DNA of 64,000 bases from Candidatus Nanopelagicaceae bacterium (GTDB taxonomy: Bacteria; Actinomycetota; Actinomycetes; Nanopelagicales; Nanopelagicaceae): NCBI GenBank assembly GCA_947454735.1, contig CANGLK010000004.1:1-64000 (forward strand), written 5' to 3'. The position numbers and the translations under genes were made by a program. Within the stretch, counting starts at the first letter, position 1, and the number at the start of each line of letters is the position of its first letter. This document shows positions 12,280-45,557 of the stretch, piece by piece. A model generated the notes under the pieces. That model was not told where the DNA came from, searched no databases, and saw only the letters and a list, made by a program, of their open reading frames with translations.

Positions 12280-13230
12280 CTATTCCCAGATACTTTGGTG
12301 GCAAGTCCAGGATGGTGGAAGTAAATCACGTGGTTCTTCCATGCCTTTAAACCAAGGTTTCGGGGCATGTATTTCGGTGCCTTCTTGGATACTTAAGAAA
12401 GCTCCCCACCAACTAAATGATGAATTGGCGATTACGTAGCCATATCCCAGGCGCATTGCTTGGAGCGTAGCGGCAGGGGATTTATCAATTTCCTCAATCG
12501 GGCGAACCTTGTCTACTAATTCGCTTGGAATGCATTTAACTGCACTTTCTAAATCATCGCTAAATAACCAAATTTTGCCGTATTTGCCACTGGCGAAAAG
12601 AGTAGGAATAACTTGGCTGTAGTAGTCGGCCGAAAGTAATCCGAAATTGTCCTCAAGACGATAATCACCTCGTCTTATGTGCACCACTAGGGGTTTTTCA
12701 ATACTCGCAAGGGACCGTAAGTCACGAAGTTCGACTGGGTCACCGCCTGCTAATTCCAGATTTCTTAGTACTTCAACACATTCAGGCCGGTGATTGAAAA
12801 ATCTATACGACTGAAAGTAACCAATTACTAGAGCCCCTTTCTTGGCAATATTAAAACTTGAATCAAATCCTAAATTTGAAGGTGAAATTACTCTTACCAA
12901 GTTGTGAATAAGAAGAGAAGATAACGCCGAGATGGCCAATTTCTTGCACATCTTAAGAATTTTGATTTGAAATGAATTGCTGGTTTTTAAAGAAATTCTT
13001 AGCGAGTAACCGAGTGCTCTATTGATTACTGATGACCAGGAATTATGCAACGTAGCATTTGGAATACGAAATTCTAAGAGATCTGGGACTCCTTCCGTAG
13101 TTCTTGGTTTTCCCAGTCGAGTCTCAAGTTCCACTTTTGTAACGTTTGCTTCACTGTGGCTCAAAGCAGCTGCAAATTGAAATAGTTGATTTCCAAGACC
13201 ACCAGTGAGTACGAATCGGGAATTTTTCAA
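12280..13230 (-). CDS. GT11-family glycosyltransferase, copy 2
   Basis: The 316-residue protein carries FVLTGGLGNQLFQFAAAL at the N-terminus, VVHIRRGDYR (the H-x-R-R-G-D-Y donor motif) in the middle and IANSSFSWWGAFLS near the C-terminus, diagnostic of GT11 (alpha-1,2-fucosyltransferase-like). The start is TTG at 13230, inside the TGA of the upstream GT2 gene (TTGA overlap), giving translational coupling. The gene is embedded in the minus-strand run GT2-GT11-ABC-GT11. Compared with copies 1 and 3 it has the most canonical motifs, so fucosyltransferase-like activity is most credible here. Confidence 0.82.
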   Translation of the reverse strand: MKNSRFVLTGGLGNQLFQFAAALSHSEANVTKVELETRLGKPRTTEGVPDLLEFRIPNATLHNSWSSVINRALGYSLRISLKTSNSFQIKILKMCKKLAISALSSLLIHNLVRVISPSNLGFDSSFNIAKKGALVIGYFQSYRFFNHRPECVEVLRNLELAGGDPVELRDLRSLASIEKPLVVHIRRGDYRLEDNFGLLSADYYSQVIPTLFASGKYGKIWLFSDDLESAVKCIPSELVDKVRPIEEIDKSPAATLQAMRLGYGYVIANSSFSWWGAFLSIQEGTEIHAPKPWFKGMEEPRDLLPPSWTCHQSIWE

Positions 13231-14132
13231 GGTTTAACCACCTGCCATTTAATTTTGTTCAAAATTCTTTTGGCAATTCTCTTTTTAGTACTTAATGTGA
13301 TCTTCTTTGTAAAGAAGAATTTCATTATGTTCTTCATTAACGTAGGCAGATATAAACGGCTAGTTACTAAGATTCTGGCAGCTACGGTTTCGAAGGCGTC
13401 AGATGTTTCACTACTTTCCGACCTAAATTCATCCAAAACAAAATCAAATGCGTTATCTAAACTCATAATCTTCTTCTTGTTATTTGTAAGTTGGTTTACA
13501 TTGTTTGTTAAATATGTATATAGATTCTGCGATACAAATTCGATTGTTCTCGTAGAAGATAATGCCCGAAGCAGGAAGATTTGATCTTCAGCCATAGATA
13601 TTTCCGGAAATTTCACGTCGGTTATGGAGTCAGTCTTGAATATATATCGCCACAAACCTGGGCCAGCGGTGAATAATTCAGACAATTGAATCTGTTGTGT
13701 TCGGTCGGTAAATTCTTGTGTAGCTCCAGTAATAATGTTTCTGGTTCCGTAACCACCCCTAATGATGGTCTTCCCATTTGCATGTGAAGCTACTATTTCA
13801 AGTGCTCTTCTTGCATTTGGGATGTCGTCTGAATCCCAAAACGCTACCCACTCTGTAGTGACTTTCTCAATTCCAACATTGCGCGCACCACCAGGGTTTT
13901 TAGATGATGATTCGAGAATTTCAAGATTTGACGATTCCAGCTTTCTTAGAGTTTGACGGAATTCTTGTGAAGTCTCCGGTTTTAGACAGTCAAAAACTAT
14001 AATCACTTTCAGGGTGCTTAGTATTTCAGCAGAGAGCCACAACATTAAAACGTGCAAAGAAGGTGCTTTACCGCCGAGAGGAATAATCGCGGTGAGCATA
14101 GGTCTAGAACTAGTTGTGCTTACACCTGGCAT
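13227..14132 (-). CDS. Family 2 glycosyltransferase
   Basis: The 301-residue protein begins with LTAIIPLGG and contains NPGGARNVGIE and VAFWDSDDIPN, the GT2 hallmarks (donor-binding loop and the D-x-D metal site). EISMAEDQIFLL near residue 180 is the E-D catalytic-base region of GT-A inverting enzymes. There is no strong membrane anchor, so it acts on the cytoplasmic side. The ATG at 14132 is preceded by TATCGT and exactly 6 nt, suggesting a leaderless mRNA, and this -10 shares its TA with that of the divergent gene. It opens a four-gene minus-strand operon. Confidence 0.8.
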   Translation of the reverse strand: MPGVSTTSSRPMLTAIIPLGGKAPSLHVLMLWLSAEILSTLKVIIVFDCLKPETSQEFRQTLRKLESSNLEILESSSKNPGGARNVGIEKVTTEWVAFWDSDDIPNARRALEIVASHANGKTIIRGGYGTRNIITGATQEFTDRTQQIQLSELFTAGPGLWRYIFKTDSITDVKFPEISMAEDQIFLLRALSSTRTIEFVSQNLYTYLTNNVNQLTNNKKKIMSLDNAFDFVLDEFRSESSETSDAFETVAARILVTSRLYLPTLMKNIMKFFFTKKITLSTKKRIAKRILNKIKWQVVKP

Positions 14133-14138
14133 GGTTCA

Positions 14139-14148
14139 ACGATACAGT
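14139..14148. promoter_or_regulatory. Bidirectional promoter with head-to-head overlapping -10 hexamers
   Basis: The 10-mer ACGATACAGT holds two -10 hexamers sharing the central TA (14143-14144). Minus strand: TATCGT (14144 to 14139), 6 nt before the ATG at 14132. Plus strand: TACAGT (14143-14148), 6 nt before the ATG at 14155. Both genes would make leaderless transcripts and the two start codons are only 22 bp apart. Confidence 0.55.
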
Positions 14149-14154
14149 AGTGCC

Positions 14155-15030
14155 ATGTCTTTAAAGGGTGCCATCTGTTTTTTAGCAATTAACGAAATCG
14201 AGGAATTGCCTCTCTTAGCGGTGAAATCGGCACTTTCTGAGTCCTCCTTAGACATATATATAGGCTATACACGCATATCTGATATTCAAGATTTGTTAAT
14301 CAATGATCGCGTACATGCGGTTGATTTATCTAATAATTTCACGTCTAAGGAAGTTCCTGTTCAGTACATGGATTTCTCGACTTCCGAGTTCTATCGAATA
14401 GTGCAACTCAAATGGGCGCTTTTCGAATTATTACTCCCCCAGTTTGATTTCCTTATTTATTCAGACATTGATGTCATTTGGCTTAGGGATGCCGGCACAT
14501 ATGTGCTTGACGCGTTCCAAGAATGTCCTGAGTTAAATTTCTTAGTGCAGGGTTTCACTGAAAAAGTTGGACAAGAATTGCTATGTATGGGATTCGCAGC
14601 AATGCGAAATAATCTAGAAACAGTCAATTTCATTCATAGTTGCCGAAAATTGCACACCGATGAATATCTTTCTAACAAGTTCGTAGGTGATGATGAAATA
14701 GTTACTAGTCAATACCACAACTTATCGAGGCCGAATTCGATAAGAGAACTGCCTCATATGTATTTCCCTGTAGGTCGAATGTTGAACCTTTATTCAACGA
14801 AGCCCGTTTTTCCGGGACTAGCAGCGCCGGAACCATATATTTTTCACTTAAATTATGTTGTTGGTTTATCAAACAAGCGGTTAATGTTGAGATTATTGAG
14901 AAATCTTAAACCCGTCAAATCCACGTTAAGAAACTCTTCATTTTCAAATTGGTATCTTTTACTTATCTTGAAGAGGGCTCGCTTTTTGCTCGGTTCTTTG
15001 AAAAAGAAACTTTCTTTGGATCGCCCGTAG
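14155..15030 (+). CDS. Nucleotide-diphospho-sugar transferase (PF03407-like)
   Basis: The 291-residue protein has the PF03407-type arrangement: KWALFELLLPQFDFLIYSDIDVIWLRD, where Asp-x-Asp plus WLRD form the metal/donor site. It continues with GFAAMRNN and DDEIVTSQY segments (the second conserved block with an acidic pair). An in-frame extension to 14014 runs antisense through the GT2 gene and is rejected; the ATG at 14155 has a -10 (TACAGT) ending 6 nt upstream. The last 72 bp overlap the 3' end of the convergent FkbM gene. It is likely a capsule glycosyltransferase of unknown donor. Confidence 0.65.
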   Translation: MSLKGAICFLAINEIEELPLLAVKSALSESSLDIYIGYTRISDIQDLLINDRVHAVDLSNNFTSKEVPVQYMDFSTSEFYRIVQLKWALFELLLPQFDFLIYSDIDVIWLRDAGTYVLDAFQECPELNFLVQGFTEKVGQELLCMGFAAMRNNLETVNFIHSCRKLHTDEYLSNKFVGDDEIVTSQYHNLSRPNSIRELPHMYFPVGRMLNLYSTKPVFPGLAAPEPYIFHLNYVVGLSNKRLMLRLLRNLKPVKSTLRNSSFSNWYLLLILKRARFLLGSLKKKLSLDRP

Positions 15031-15723
15031 GTAACTTTTCACCTGAAGCCACACGTAAGATATGTAGAAGCCTGGAAGCTTAAATGTTGCCTGGACTCCC
15101 AAGTGCGGAATGTGGCTGCGTCTAATGTACAAAGCATCGCCCCAGCCAAATGGCGTTAACCTGGTAACTTTTCTTGTGAATCCATATTCATCCAGGAATC
15201 GATCCATTTCATCCATCAATGCGCAGCCTTTGTAAACTTCCTTCTTGTTGATTTCTGTGCATATCCAATTTATATTCTGTAGCCCGTTTTTAAATCCTTT
15301 TAGCGCTCTAAGTTCAACACCTTGAATGTCTAATGCTAAGTAGTCATGATTTTCGGGTAGATTCAAATCATCTAATGTCACTGTTTTTACAGGTATTTCT
15401 GCCGAAAAATGAATTTCGGGATGAACTTTTGAGTGTGTACCGAATTCAAGAAGTGATGTTGATTCCGAATTTGATGAAACGTGAAGGGTTAATTCTTCGC
15501 CCGAAGAATCCCATATGGCCGCTTGAATGACCCGATCGCCAAGCTCTGATGTTACTCCTTTTAAGCGAGCTGCTAAAGCTGGTTGAGCTTCTATCCAGAT
15601 AACTTGACCCCAACTGTTCGACTTGTATTCTGAATTCTCTTCCCCTAAATGGCCACCTACATGGATGATTCCTTTGGGACGAACACCCCACACGAGTGAC
15701 TGTTCTCTTATGGAAATAAGCAT
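14959..15723 (-). CDS. FkbM-family methyltransferase
   Basis: The 254-residue protein shows the FkbM methyltransferase core: IIHVGGHLGEE (SAM-binding Gly-rich loop), VIWIEAQP (acidic ribose-binding residue), AIWDSSGEELTLHVS and YLALDIQGVELRALKGF. Family members O-methylate sugars in polysaccharides and natural products, so a glycan substituent is the likely target. The start at ATG 15723 is preferred over TTG at 15729 because TACTAT ends 5 nt before it. It is divergent from the exostosin-like gene with only 21 bp between the start codons, and overlaps the convergent transferase gene by 72 bp at the 3' end. Confidence 0.8.
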   Translation of the reverse strand: MLISIREQSLVWGVRPKGIIHVGGHLGEENSEYKSNSWGQVIWIEAQPALAARLKGVTSELGDRVIQAAIWDSSGEELTLHVSSNSESTSLLEFGTHSKVHPEIHFSAEIPVKTVTLDDLNLPENHDYLALDIQGVELRALKGFKNGLQNINWICTEINKKEVYKGCALMDEMDRFLDEYGFTRKVTRLTPFGWGDALYIRRSHIPHLGVQATFKLPGFYISYVWLQVKSYLRAIQRKFLFQRTEQKASPLQDK

Positions 15724-15728
15724 GAGCA

Positions 15729-15738
15729 ATAGTATCCT
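15729..15738. promoter_or_regulatory. Bidirectional promoter with shared-TA -10 hexamers
   Basis: ATAGTATCCT contains TACTAT on the minus strand (15734 to 15729), 5 nt before the ATG at 15723, and TATCCT on the plus strand (15733-15738), 6 nt before the GTG at 15745. The hexamers overlap by the TA at 15733-15734, the same geometry as at 14139-14148 and 44891-44900. Confidence 0.55.
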
Positions 15739-15744
15739 TGCGAA

Positions 15745-16626
15745 GTGGAAGCTGAGAGACCTTCAAGATTTTATGTGGCAAAAGTATACTTGCGTCGAAT
15801 AATTAGATGGAGACGCAATTCTTTTCCATATATATCTGGTGATGCCTTCGCCGATTTGGCGGATTTTGTCTATAAACCACCCAAATTCCGATCTTTTAGA
15901 CGTCAACGGATTCCAATCGAGAATGCAGCGACTATTTTCTGTAGAAGTGAAGATTTGTCGGAGATGCTCTCCTTGCATGGAAGATCTATGACTGCTTCAG
16001 TGATCATTTGCGGAAATAGTGACTATGAGTTCCACAAATTGCCAGAGAATATGCCTTCGTCGGTTACTTCTCTATTTCTACAAAATTCATTCATTTCAGA
16101 TGGAACATTCATTAATTCCATTCCCATCGGTCTTGAAAATTTGAGGTGGGGAGTTAATGGAAATCCGCGACTTTTGTGGCGAATGAGTCGCAAGGCAGGC
16201 AATAGAGTGTTGTTCGGACCTTTTGGGAAGACTCACCACACTCGTTTAGAAGTCGCGAATATGTTTTCAAAATCTGGCCAAGTTTGGAATTTTCTTGAAT
16301 CTCGTCGGATTTCTCCTATTAAATACGCTTGGATAGCGCGCCAATATAGGTTCATAGCTGCAGTACGCGGAAATGGAGTAGACACTCACAGACACTGGGA
16401 GTCGCTCTATCGAGGAATTACTCCAATTGTTTACAGTGATTCATGGAGCACGTCGATGGTCTCGCAAGGGATACCTTTCCAACTTGTGACATCTTGGGAT
16501 CCTTCTGAAATCAATCTGATAGTACAGAAAGAACCATTGAAGATTAAACCAAAGGATTTGCCTGTTCTGTGGATGCCCTACTGGGCAGAAAAAATCAGAG
16601 CGGCGGTTAAGGTATCAAAAAGCTAG
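15745..16626 (+). CDS. Exostosin-like glycosyltransferase
   Basis: The 293-residue protein has a GT-B-like C-terminal signature: FIAAVRGNGVDTHRHWESLYRGITPIV, with the conserved R-G-N-G-x-D-T-H-R-x-W-E block and the following G-x-x-P-I-V seen in exostosin-type (GT47-like) transferases. The N-terminal half is variable and basic. It starts with GTG at 15745, 6 nt after a TATCCT -10 and without a ribosome site. It stands alone on the plus strand between divergent and convergent neighbours. The sugar donor cannot be predicted. Confidence 0.6.
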   Translation: MEAERPSRFYVAKVYLRRIIRWRRNSFPYISGDAFADLADFVYKPPKFRSFRRQRIPIENAATIFCRSEDLSEMLSLHGRSMTASVIICGNSDYEFHKLPENMPSSVTSLFLQNSFISDGTFINSIPIGLENLRWGVNGNPRLLWRMSRKAGNRVLFGPFGKTHHTRLEVANMFSKSGQVWNFLESRRISPIKYAWIARQYRFIAAVRGNGVDTHRHWESLYRGITPIVYSDSWSTSMVSQGIPFQLVTSWDPSEINLIVQKEPLKIKPKDLPVLWMPYWAEKIRAAVKVSKS

Positions 16627-16636
16627 TTCCTATAAA

Positions 16637-17452
16637 TTAAAATGCAGATCCTGTTGCTCCAAAATAGCTGGATTCAACAAAGGAACCGTCGCGGAATCCG
16701 TCTTCAGCTTTCAAATAATTAATCTCAAGTTCAAGTTTGTCTGCTAGTACGCTTAATGCAATCTGCTCACTGATTCGCAGGAGTGAGTCTTTATACTCGG
16801 CGAAGTAAACTTCAAAGTTGCAAATTTGATTGATCGAATCCATGACATCACGAATTAATTCTGAATCAAGATTGGTTGTTTGATAACCCCCCCAATATAT
16901 GAATGATGTATTTTTCATTGAAATTTCATTGCCAAAATTCCAATGAGGGTTTCTAGATAAATCCCGATATGGCTCTCGATCTGAAAAATCAAATTCTTTA
17001 ACAAAATATGTGATGTCCTTAAGTGGCGGTATTTTTCCGTTCCAACGTAAATCTGCATCCATAAAGAACTCATTTTCCGCCTGCATGGAAAGCACAAGAT
17101 CTAGTTTTAGTTCCTGCCATGTTGACGAATCTGAATTCACGCGTTCGACTTTGACTACACCTTTTTTGATTAAACGCTTTAAAGACTTCTTGACTACAAT
17201 TTCTGTAAAATTGTCTACGTGTATCACGGCTTTACATTTCCGATTATGGAAAAAGAAGCTTTCCAAGCATATTTTTGCTATTTTGGCATAAATAGGTTTC
17301 TTGACGACTAGTAAGTTTGCAACAAGCTCAAAATCTGAACTATTTGAGTTTTTTAGCAATTGATACTTATATGACTGAAGTTGGGTTATCAGATTACGAG
17401 CAGTCCTACGAAGTAATCTAACAGGGAAGCGAACAAAACCTCGTAACGTCAT
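16637..17452 (-). CDS. Putative glycosyltransferase (GT-A-like, family unknown)
   Basis: The 271-residue protein has a basic N-terminus, then LLVVKKPIYAKIAKICLESFFFHNRKCKAVIHVD, resembling the first strand-helix of a GT-A fold, and NEFFMDADLRWNG with an Asp-Ala-Asp motif in the expected D-x-D position preceded by WQELKLDLV. A HWNFGNE segment follows. This order parallels PF03407/DUF6492-like transferases of the island, but I do not recognise the family. The ATG at 17452 is preceded by TAAGAT ending 5 nt upstream. The neighbours are convergent (exostosin-like, 10-bp gap) and divergent (GT25). Confidence 0.5.
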   Translation of the reverse strand: MTLRGFVRFPVRLLRRTARNLITQLQSYKYQLLKNSNSSDFELVANLLVVKKPIYAKIAKICLESFFFHNRKCKAVIHVDNFTEIVVKKSLKRLIKKGVVKVERVNSDSSTWQELKLDLVLSMQAENEFFMDADLRWNGKIPPLKDITYFVKEFDFSDREPYRDLSRNPHWNFGNEISMKNTSFIYWGGYQTTNLDSELIRDVMDSINQICNFEVYFAEYKDSLLRISEQIALSVLADKLELEINYLKAEDGFRDGSFVESSYFGATGSAF

Positions 17453-17457
17453 ATCTA

Positions 17458-17472
17458 ATCTTAATGCATAAT
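17458..17472. promoter_or_regulatory. Closely spaced divergent leaderless promoters
   Basis: The minus-strand -10 TAAGAT (17463 to 17458) lies 5 nt before the ATG at 17452. The plus-strand -10 CATAAT (17467-17472) lies 6 nt before the ATG at 17479. The hexamers are separated by 3 bp. No ribosome site precedes either start. Confidence 0.45.
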
Positions 17473-17478
17473 TACTCC

Positions 17479-18171
17479 ATGAAAGCTTATGTCATTAACT
17501 TGGATTCAAGGTCGGATCGATGGAATTCCGTCCTTGCACAGGAAAAGAACTTAGCTCTCCCTTTAGTCCGAGTTCCTGCTGTGTCCACTAATGAGGTCTC
17601 CTCATCGGAATTTACAACATTGGCTGTCAATGCCACTTGGGGATCGCATCAACGAGCAATGAGACTCTTCTTGGCTAGTAACGATGAATATGGACTCATT
17701 CTTGAAGATGATTTCATTTTAAGTCCGTCGTGGTCCAAAACCACTTTAGACAGATTCCAGACACTCGGATGCGATTTCCTACAAGTTGGTTACCTGATAA
17801 CTACTCCACTTGATTTGATAGAAATTAAACTCAAGTCAACGGTCGATCTTGCATTGAAATTACTAAATAAATTGACTTCAATGGGGTTAATTCCTAAGTC
17901 TTGGTTTGGAGATAGGCTACTTGTTATGGAGCAAGATAACGTTCCATTTAGTTTTGTTTGCAATGACATTCGGCCTGGAGCGCATGGATATATAGTGTCG
18001 AGAAGGTTTGCGATGGCATCTCAACAGTTCAATAATCCAGTTATTTTAAGTACAGATGCACTATTCATGGCATTGGGTTGGATGAGAACTTTTAAATTTA
18101 TGCGCATCAGAAAAAGTGTCATATCTCAAAGTGACTCAGCCACGTCAATCACAGAGAGATTTCTTTCTTAA
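17479..18171 (+). CDS. GT25-family glycosyltransferase
   Basis: The 230-residue protein begins with AYVINLDSRSDRW, the typical GT25 start (Y/F-V-I-N-L-D-R-x-x-x-R-x), and has YGLILEDDF, the E-D-D metal/donor motif, around residue 80. GAHGYIVSRRFA near residue 178 matches the A-Y-x-I/V block of the family. GT25 enzymes (LgtB/LpsA type) commonly transfer galactose or glucose in surface glycans. The start is placed at 17479 rather than at the in-frame ATG 17464 because the family consensus starts there and a CATAAT -10 ends 6 nt before it. The 3' end overlaps the convergent GT11 gene by 4 bp. Confidence 0.8.
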   Translation: MKAYVINLDSRSDRWNSVLAQEKNLALPLVRVPAVSTNEVSSSEFTTLAVNATWGSHQRAMRLFLASNDEYGLILEDDFILSPSWSKTTLDRFQTLGCDFLQVGYLITTPLDLIEIKLKSTVDLALKLLNKLTSMGLIPKSWFGDRLLVMEQDNVPFSFVCNDIRPGAHGYIVSRRFAMASQQFNNPVILSTDALFMALGWMRTFKFMRIRKSVISQSDSATSITERFLS

Positions 18172-43581: not shown

Positions 43582-44883
43582 CTAATTTGCAGGATTTTGC
43601 AGAACTGGGCGTGTGGCAGCGAGAGTGTGGAGGGTAGTCAGGGCGAAGCCCGCCTCGGGAATGAAGAGCTCAAGGCTGCCATGGTCAATGACCATCCGGA
43701 TCGTAAATTTTTCCAACTCGATAACGGGGCTCGCCTGGACTCCTTCTTCGACCTCAGCAAACCAGGCCTTACTGCGATCCACAACGAGCTTCTTAGTTGC
43801 GGGGTTAAATGAGATAACAACTTCTTGATTCTCACCCAGTGTGATGGCGATCTTCTGATCTGCGCTAATTTCAAAACTGTAATCGTGTGGTGTCACAAGT
43901 TCTGCGATGGGATGAGATGTCAACATCAATCGATTATTCACAGATGTAATCTGTAATTCGCGAGGGGCTGTCATAGAGCCGCGCCAGATTGGTGATGGAA
44001 GTTTTGACGCGTAATCCCAATTACTCATCCAGGCAAGGAAGATTCTTCTTCCATCTGCAACGTTATTAAAAGTCACTCCTGCATAATTGTCGCGACCATA
44101 ATCAATCCATAAAGTTTCACTCTGTGACGTTGTAAATATTCTTCCGTCCCAGTCGCCGATGAAGTACTGGGTTCCTGATCCACCAGCAACTCCGCCGGGG
44201 TTGAGTGAAACAATCAATACCCATTTCGTTTCACCACTTGGTGTTGGAAGCTCAAAGAGATCAGGGCATTCCCAGATGCCACCGATTGCGGCAAGGGGTC
44301 CAAAGTCAGAGAGGTGTGTCCAACTCTTTAAATCTGTTGATCTAAAGAATGCAATTTTAAATTCTTGTGGCTTTGCAACTGTCATCAACCAGGTTTGTGT
44401 TTCTGGCTCCCATGAAACCTTTGGATCACGGAAATCTTTCATTTCTAAATCAAGAACTGGATTATCTGCATACTTCATCCATGTCATGCCTTCATCGAGG
44501 CTAAAAGCAATATGTTGGGCTTGGTGGGTTTCATCATTTTGATGCACTGTATAAATCGCAACCATTGGTGGATTTTCAAGTGATCCAAAGCCACTGCTAT
44601 TTGTCAGATCGATTACTGCGCTTCCACTGAAAATGCCAGCTGTATCTGTGCAAGGAATAGCAACAGGTAGGTGCTGCCATGTATGTAAATCGGTACTTAC
44701 GGAGTGGCCCCATGACATATTGCCCCACAAGATCCCAGAAGGGTTGTGTTGATAGAAGAGGTGATATTTGCCTTTGTAAAAAAGTAAACCGTTGGGATCA
44801 TTGATCCAATTCTTTTCTGGTGTGAAGTGAAAAGTGGGGCGGAATTCTTCCGTGAAAACACTCGGGGTCGGGTGCGTTTGCAT
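43582..44883 (-). CDS. GH32 beta-fructosidase (sucrose/fructan hydrolase)
   Basis: The 433-residue protein has the GH32 catalytic motifs: WINDPNG at 26-32 (nucleophile Asp29), FRDP at 151-154 (transition-state stabiliser) and ECPD with Glu205 as acid/base. A C-terminal beta-sandwich region follows. There is no signal peptide, so it cleaves imported sucrose, fructans or sucrose-6-phosphate in the cytoplasm. The start is ATG 44883; an in-frame extension to 44979 would cross the divergent dedA start and is rejected. A TAAGGT -10 (44896 to 44891) ends 7 nt upstream, implying a leaderless mRNA. It heads GH32-binding protein-permeases. Confidence 0.9.
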   Translation of the reverse strand: MQTHPTPSVFTEEFRPTFHFTPEKNWINDPNGLLFYKGKYHLFYQHNPSGILWGNMSWGHSVSTDLHTWQHLPVAIPCTDTAGIFSGSAVIDLTNSSGFGSLENPPMVAIYTVHQNDETHQAQHIAFSLDEGMTWMKYADNPVLDLEMKDFRDPKVSWEPETQTWLMTVAKPQEFKIAFFRSTDLKSWTHLSDFGPLAAIGGIWECPDLFELPTPSGETKWVLIVSLNPGGVAGGSGTQYFIGDWDGRIFTTSQSETLWIDYGRDNYAGVTFNNVADGRRIFLAWMSNWDYASKLPSPIWRGSMTAPRELQITSVNNRLMLTSHPIAELVTPHDYSFEISADQKIAITLGENQEVVISFNPATKKLVVDRSKAWFAEVEEGVQASPVIELEKFTIRMVIDHGSLELFIPEAGFALTTLHTLAATRPVLQNPAN

Positions 44884-44890
44884 GGCGCGT

Positions 44891-44900
44891 ACCTTATCCT
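44891..44900. promoter_or_regulatory. Bidirectional promoter with shared-TA -10 hexamers
   Basis: ACCTTATCCT contains TAAGGT on the minus strand (44896 to 44891), 7 nt before the GH32 ATG, and TATCCT on the plus strand (44895-44900), 6 nt before the dedA ATG at 44907. The hexamers overlap by the TA at 44895-44896. Confidence 0.55.
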
Positions 44901-44906
44901 CTACAT

Positions 44907-45557
44907 ATGAATATCGCTGCAAATATCTTTGATGCACATTCAATTGTTGGGGATTTAGGTCTTGCTGGAGTTCTAGCAATTATCTTCGCTGAGACTGGTC
45001 TTCTTCTTGGCCTCGCTTTTCCAGGAGATTCACTTCTCTTTATCGCGGGAATTGCAGCTTCATCTGCAGGAGCTCAGATTCTTGGTGGGGCATCCCTTCA
45101 CGCAATCTCTATCTTTATTGGTGCGCCACTTGTTGCAATTATCGGTTCGCAATTCGGCCACTTTTTAGGAAATCGTTACGGTCGCAAACTCTTTGATCGC
45201 CCTAACGGTCGCTTCTTTACGCAAGAACGTGTTTCGCAGACAGAGCGATGGCTCTCAAAATATGGCGTTGGTAAGGCGTTGATCCTCGCGCGCTTTATTC
45301 CTTTTGTCCGCACACTGATCAATCCAATGGTGGGAATCATTGGTTACCCTGCACGTAAATTCCTTCTCTGGAATGTTATTGGTGCACTCCTGTGGACAGA
45401 ATTAGTTCTCGGTGCAGGTTATGTGCTCGGAAATAAAATCAGTGGATCTATCGATAAGTATTTGCTTCCCATTGTTGCGCTGATTGTCCTTGTGAGTGTG
45501 TTGCCGGTTGCGATTGAGGTATTGAAAGAGTGGCGTACGAAGAAGGATCTCTCTTAA
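44907..45557 (+). CDS. DedA-family membrane protein
   Basis: The 216-residue protein shows the DedA (SNARE-associated/VTT) pattern: ETGLLLGLAFPGDSLLFIAGI near residue 28, GSQFGHFLGNRYGRKLF, ERWLSKYGVGKALILARFIPFVRTLINPMVGIIGYPARKFLLWNVIGALLW with the conserved R-F-x-P-x-x-R segment, and further helices at the C-terminus. Family members are membrane proteins implicated in undecaprenyl-phosphate or phospholipid flipping, which would link to envelope building. The ATG at 44907 follows a TATCCT -10 by 6 nt (leaderless). The 3' end overlaps pyrE by 4 bp. Confidence 0.88.
   Translation: MNIAANIFDAHSIVGDLGLAGVLAIIFAETGLLLGLAFPGDSLLFIAGIAASSAGAQILGGASLHAISIFIGAPLVAIIGSQFGHFLGNRYGRKLFDRPNGRFFTQERVSQTERWLSKYGVGKALILARFIPFVRTLINPMVGIIGYPARKFLLWNVIGALLWTELVLGAGYVLGNKISGSIDKYLLPIVALIVLVSVLPVAIEVLKEWRTKKDLS

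Follow-up and report, generated by a model that had tools for sequence, protein, structure and literature searches.

A glycan locus in the genome of a freshwater actinobacterium contains two divergent gene pairs, each of which shares a symmetric 10-bp -10 element between its closely spaced start codons. We consider it probable (roughly 0.78) that this element represents a minimal bidirectional, mostly leaderless promoter. Judged by its sequence, the architecture is real and recurs across the genus, and it would be a leaderless form of the known bidirectional promoter with 23-bp spacing. The window, i.e. the whole stretch of DNA that was analysed, comprised the initial 64 kb of contig 4. The genome has 1.40 Mb and about 49% GC, and it probably belongs to Candidatus Planktophila (acI Actinobacteria, freshwater) as indicated by the named relatives of a conserved gene from its congeners. 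Both pairs are located in an AT-rich stretch (about 40% GC, roughly 4-24 kb of the window) with genes for glycosyltransferases, an ABC transporter, an FkbM methyltransferase and an epimerase. Gene predictions missed or truncated AT-rich glycan genes, and the pairs in the window were therefore analysed by open reading frame (ORF) and pattern. The features discussed are the following:

13227..14132, minus strand: glycosyltransferase family 2 protein, 301 aa (PF00535, E 7.5e-10); ATG at 14132, predicted leaderless
14139..14148, both strands: shared -10 element of pair 1, ACGATACAGT, read from sequence, with both boxes at -12 from the start codons
14155..15030, plus strand: nucleotide-diphospho-sugar transferase-like protein, 291 aa (PF03407, E 9.5e-8); ATG at 14155, predicted leaderless
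14959..15723, minus strand: FkbM-family methyltransferase, 254 aa (PF05050, E 1.2e-16); ATG at 15723
15729..15738, both strands: shared -10 element of pair 2, ATAGTATCCT, read from sequence, with the plus box at -12 and the minus box at -11
15745..16626, plus strand: protein of unknown family, 293 aa; GTG at 15745, predicted leaderless
43582..44883, minus strand: GH32 beta-fructosidase (PF00251, E 7.8e-95), left partner of the third element
44891..44900, both strands: third shared -10 element of the window, ACCTTATCCT, flanked by divergent starts at 44883 (minus) and 44907 (plus), 24 bp apart
44907..45557, plus strand: DedA/VTT-domain membrane protein (PF09335, E 2.3e-16), right partner of the third element

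Direct reading confirmed that both elements of the glycan locus have the form A-N3-TA-N3-T, in which two head-to-head TANNNT -10 hexamers have one TA in common, as had been stated in the preliminary description. In pair 1 the order is CAT (14130-14132), GGTTCA, ACGATACAGT (14139-14148), AGTGCC and ATG (14155), with the plus box TACAGT (14143-14148) and the minus box TATCGT (14144-14139) each separated from its start codon by a spacer of 6 nt. Pair 2 reads CAT (15721-15723), GAGCA, ATAGTATCCT (15729-15738), TGCGAA and GTG (15745), and here the plus box TATCCT (15733-15738) has a spacer of 6 nt and the minus box TACTAT (15734-15729) one of 5 nt. The description of hexamers ending 5-6 nt before start codons about 22 bp apart was thus accurate, the start-to-start distances being 23 bp in pair 1 and 22 bp in pair 2. 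All four boxes scored in just the 17th to 38th percentile of the leaderless boxes of this genome.

Three of the starts (14132, 14155 and 15745) showed the features of leaderless genes, i.e. a TANNNT box at -12 and no Shine-Dalgarno site. The FkbM start at 15723 has its box at -11, a position at which TANNNT showed no signal over background (2 cases in this genome and 8 in the congener G013), and the minus box of pair 2 is therefore the least secure of the four. An AGGA at -15 of this start could be a weak Shine-Dalgarno site instead. The start at 15723 itself is favoured because two congeneric FkbM homologues (L254 and L255) begin at this residue too and have their TANNNT box at -12.

Within the window, glycan genes between 12280 and 19948 alternate in orientation through consecutive junctions, of which three are divergent and three convergent, and convergent 3' ends overlap by up to 72 bp (14959-15030). 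Another tight divergent pair of this locus is found at 17452-17479; its minus gene carries TAAGAT at -11, as does the FkbM gene with its own box, and its plus gene has just a poor CATAAT box.

A TANNNT motif with its first T about 12 bp before the start codon is known to mark leaderless genes in Actinobacteria (PMC3160421). With starts picked from coding signal alone, blind to the motif, 158 of 1035 genes of this genome had the first T of TANNNT at -12 and another 45 had it at -13, while the background at other positions was about 9 per position. The corresponding numbers for G013 were 144 of 1118 genes at -12 and 66 at -13. According to the start model, the leaderless class makes up about one third of the predicted genes and has the consensus TA(A/G)(A/G)CT. 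A search for a -35 signal upstream of leaderless promoters found none, and our literature search yielded no publication that deals with Planktophila promoters or leaderless genes.

We then counted the shared geometry in this genome, for which about 1.1 Mb of the 1.4 Mb were covered, using an ORF-based search (A...TA...T with spacers of 5-7 nt, flanked on either side by an ORF of 100 or more codons). This yielded 8 matches, compared to 0-2 each (mean 0.33, 5 in all) for 15 other symmetric 10-bp patterns (Poisson P ~3e-9). The claim for this genome rests on the ORF-based search because an ATG-only pattern, with 3 matches, could not be told from its control with 2. The preliminary description had called for a motif search in related genomes against a control, and such a search also turned out in favour of the element. 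The pattern CATN6ANNNTANNNTN6ATG occurred 84 times in 36 genomes of the same genus vs 4 times for the reversed control, and 121 vs 42 times in other genera of the family; these totals were summed by hand from tables and include orthologous sites that are not independent, with about 25 distinct sites counted by eye. Among 23 genomes of other families the pattern was found 7 times vs 3 times in reverse. Most pairs with the shared-element geometry look like unrelated housekeeping genes.

When this genome and G013 were pooled, 64 pairs of long-ORF starts had TANNNT on both strands, whereas 63 other three-base motifs gave 1.2 on average. The distances between starts clustered at 17-19 bp (6 pairs), 23-24 bp (9 pairs) and 26-27 bp (6 pairs), with none at 20-22 bp, and for the cluster at 23-24 bp about 2 pairs were expected (P ~3e-4). 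An 18-bp shared box (TANNNTA) was considered as the main class and rejected. Recurrent in the two genomes was a second divergent layout, CTAATAGACT-like, with boxes one base apart and starts 26-27 bp apart, next to the class of divergent starts at 17-19 bp.

A core conserved across the genus was seen between the genes for a SpoU-family methylase and a 115-aa protein. Of 79 loci, 77 carried the core AGTTTAGAGT and the other two AGTTTAGGGT, where it has to be considered that cores were located by a TTTAGAGTG-like match and that the plus half was thus partly selected for; the same core was present in unselected upstream sequences. Start codons were exactly 23 bp apart in 46 loci, with variable spacers, and in other cases the minus start lay 27-41 nt from the box, often preceded by a Shine-Dalgarno-like sequence. 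About a dozen loci without the 115-aa gene had a 391-aa D-Ala-D-Ala carboxypeptidase-like gene next to the same box. Thus the shared box, as far as can be read from these loci, is retained while the partner gene changes and so does the way in which it is translated. Loci whose minus gene is not leaderless retained the minus half of the core as well, so that this half may have a further role. In L188, L199, L202, L213 and L216 the 115-aa gene was lost and the conserved box joined to the downstream carboxypeptidase-like gene, and in some species the first codons of the lost gene were left behind before the carboxypeptidase-like gene.

The glycan pairs of the window were not conserved in this way. 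Among 60 congeners, 4 had a homologue of the 293-aa protein and 1 had a homologue of the PF03407 protein. In genome G074 the 293-aa protein has a homologue with 49% identity and the PF03407 homologue agrees with the start at 14155. The one syntenic locus found, that of G074, encodes divergent homologues of the glycosyltransferase family 2 and PF03407 proteins about 90 bp apart and without the shared box, and no FkbM gene was present between its PF03407 and 293-aa protein homologues. The rarity of the homologues together with this locus lacking both box and FkbM gene indicated that the pairs in the window are arranged in this way only locally, and this speaks against a conserved switch. At two further loci (L249, 5533-5554; L250, 5132-5156) homologues of the 293-aa protein overlap the divergent gene at their 5' ends, and the TANNNT box of the divergent gene lies inside the coding sequence of its neighbour.

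Taken together, the reading of the elements as bidirectional leaderless promoters, already proposed in the preliminary description, appears strongly supported for pair 1 and less so for pair 2 with its minus box at -11. It is consistent with the TANNNT peak at -12, the enrichment of the shared geometry, the core of same geometry conserved at the SpoU locus and the lack of a -35 signal. Two TANNNT boxes on opposite strands with a common TA would allow RNA polymerase to bind in either orientation. Transcription would then start at or within a base of the start codon, which lies about 12 bp away from the box's first T, and since the genes are presumed leaderless, the known 23-bp spacing of start sites would become a spacing of start codons, so that about 22 bp of intergenic DNA could serve two genes. 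Both sides would probably be expressed at a low and more or less constitutive level, with polymerases alternating and neither side being locked. We infer that such low expression in both directions is likelier because about 22 bp between the genes and no -35 signal leave little room for an activator.

The element resembles the symmetric -10 bidirectional promoters described by Warman, Grainger and colleagues (PMC12825309, PMC10268837) in its -10 sequence common to both strands and in the 23-bp spacing. Among these promoters a start-site spacing of 18 bp is most common, and 10 and 23 bp are also common (PMC12825309). In contrast, the 23-bp class was clearly enriched here and the 18-bp pattern weakly (38 vs 23), and both genes are predicted to be leaderless, with promoter geometry setting the distance between start codons. 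Type of box and distance of about 12 bp are the same as in the leaderless TANNNT genes of PMC3160421, a study which treats single genes and whose text does not contain the word 'divergent', whereas the genes considered here are divergent pairs.

The geometry might also be a by-product of compaction, if divergent leaderless genes were pressed together until their independent -10 boxes overlapped and the overlap had no role of its own. This is possible, with the odds leaning against it. Distances of 17 to 60 bp are seen for many divergent pairs, the majority with two leaderless boxes, and intergenic DNA is minimal, as would be expected from compaction, but start distances that cluster at 23-24 bp with none at 20-22 bp and a shared core that is kept through the loss of a partner gene would not. 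Compaction disputes the significance of the overlap and not the bidirectional activity. The genes might instead have leaders and be transcribed from upstream promoters inside the opposite coding sequence, with TANNNT at the starts being incidental. The AGGA near the FkbM start and the -11 position of the pair 2 minus box would fit such leaders, but we regard them as unlikely given that three of the four starts have a box at the preferred -12 without a Shine-Dalgarno site and that the FkbM homologues have TANNNT at -12.

Some elements come close to perfect palindromes (AGTCTAGACT, AAAGGTACCCTT), and conservation in the SpoU pair extends to the N3 bases, which would suit a transcription factor operator. 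This is very unlikely, as the N3 bases vary between sites and the elements have just A, TA and T in common, placed at a constant distance from the start codons in agreement with the genome-wide -10 box. The mutually exclusive expression and surface-glycan switch suggested in the preliminary description found no support, and an either/or switch of this kind seems scarcely credible. It would draw on the position of the four genes in a glycan locus and on the established steric exclusion of opposing polymerases, which are unable to occupy the element in both orientations together (PMC12825309). However, five bidirectional promoters of E. coli showed no competition at basal activity, and just strong activation of one side repressed the other (PMC12825309); brief occupancy by polymerase would moreover not amount to a heritable state. 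Around the locus only imperfect, scattered inverted matches were found and no convincing inversion repeats. None of the four genes, which encode glycan enzymes or unknown proteins, looks like a regulator, and no feedback gene was seen. The glycan pairs lack conservation, and the same geometry occurs at the SpoU methylase, GH32/DedA and other housekeeping pairs.

The bidirectional leaderless promoter thus remains our preferred reading, and its geometry appears to be common in this compact genus, where at one locus at least it seems to outlive the loss or exchange of a partner gene. Tentatively, and with somewhat less than an even chance of being right, we propose that the shared-TA leaderless element of Planktophila might be a lineage-wide module of gene organisation, in which the entire regulatory region of two genes would consist of 10 bp, with starts fixed 23 bp apart. 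Such a module would persist through deletion or exchange of a partner and through a change from leaderless to Shine-Dalgarno translation, and could be a docking site for new divergent genes, e.g. in the glycan locus. If transcript mapping confirms the promoter, its symmetry would directly determine how far apart genes lie in a streamlined freshwater lineage, with about 22 bp of DNA sufficient to run two genes. Planktophila would then provide numerous recurring cases, as well as some that are deeply conserved, as a natural system for studying how one -10 box without a recognisable -35 serves two directions.
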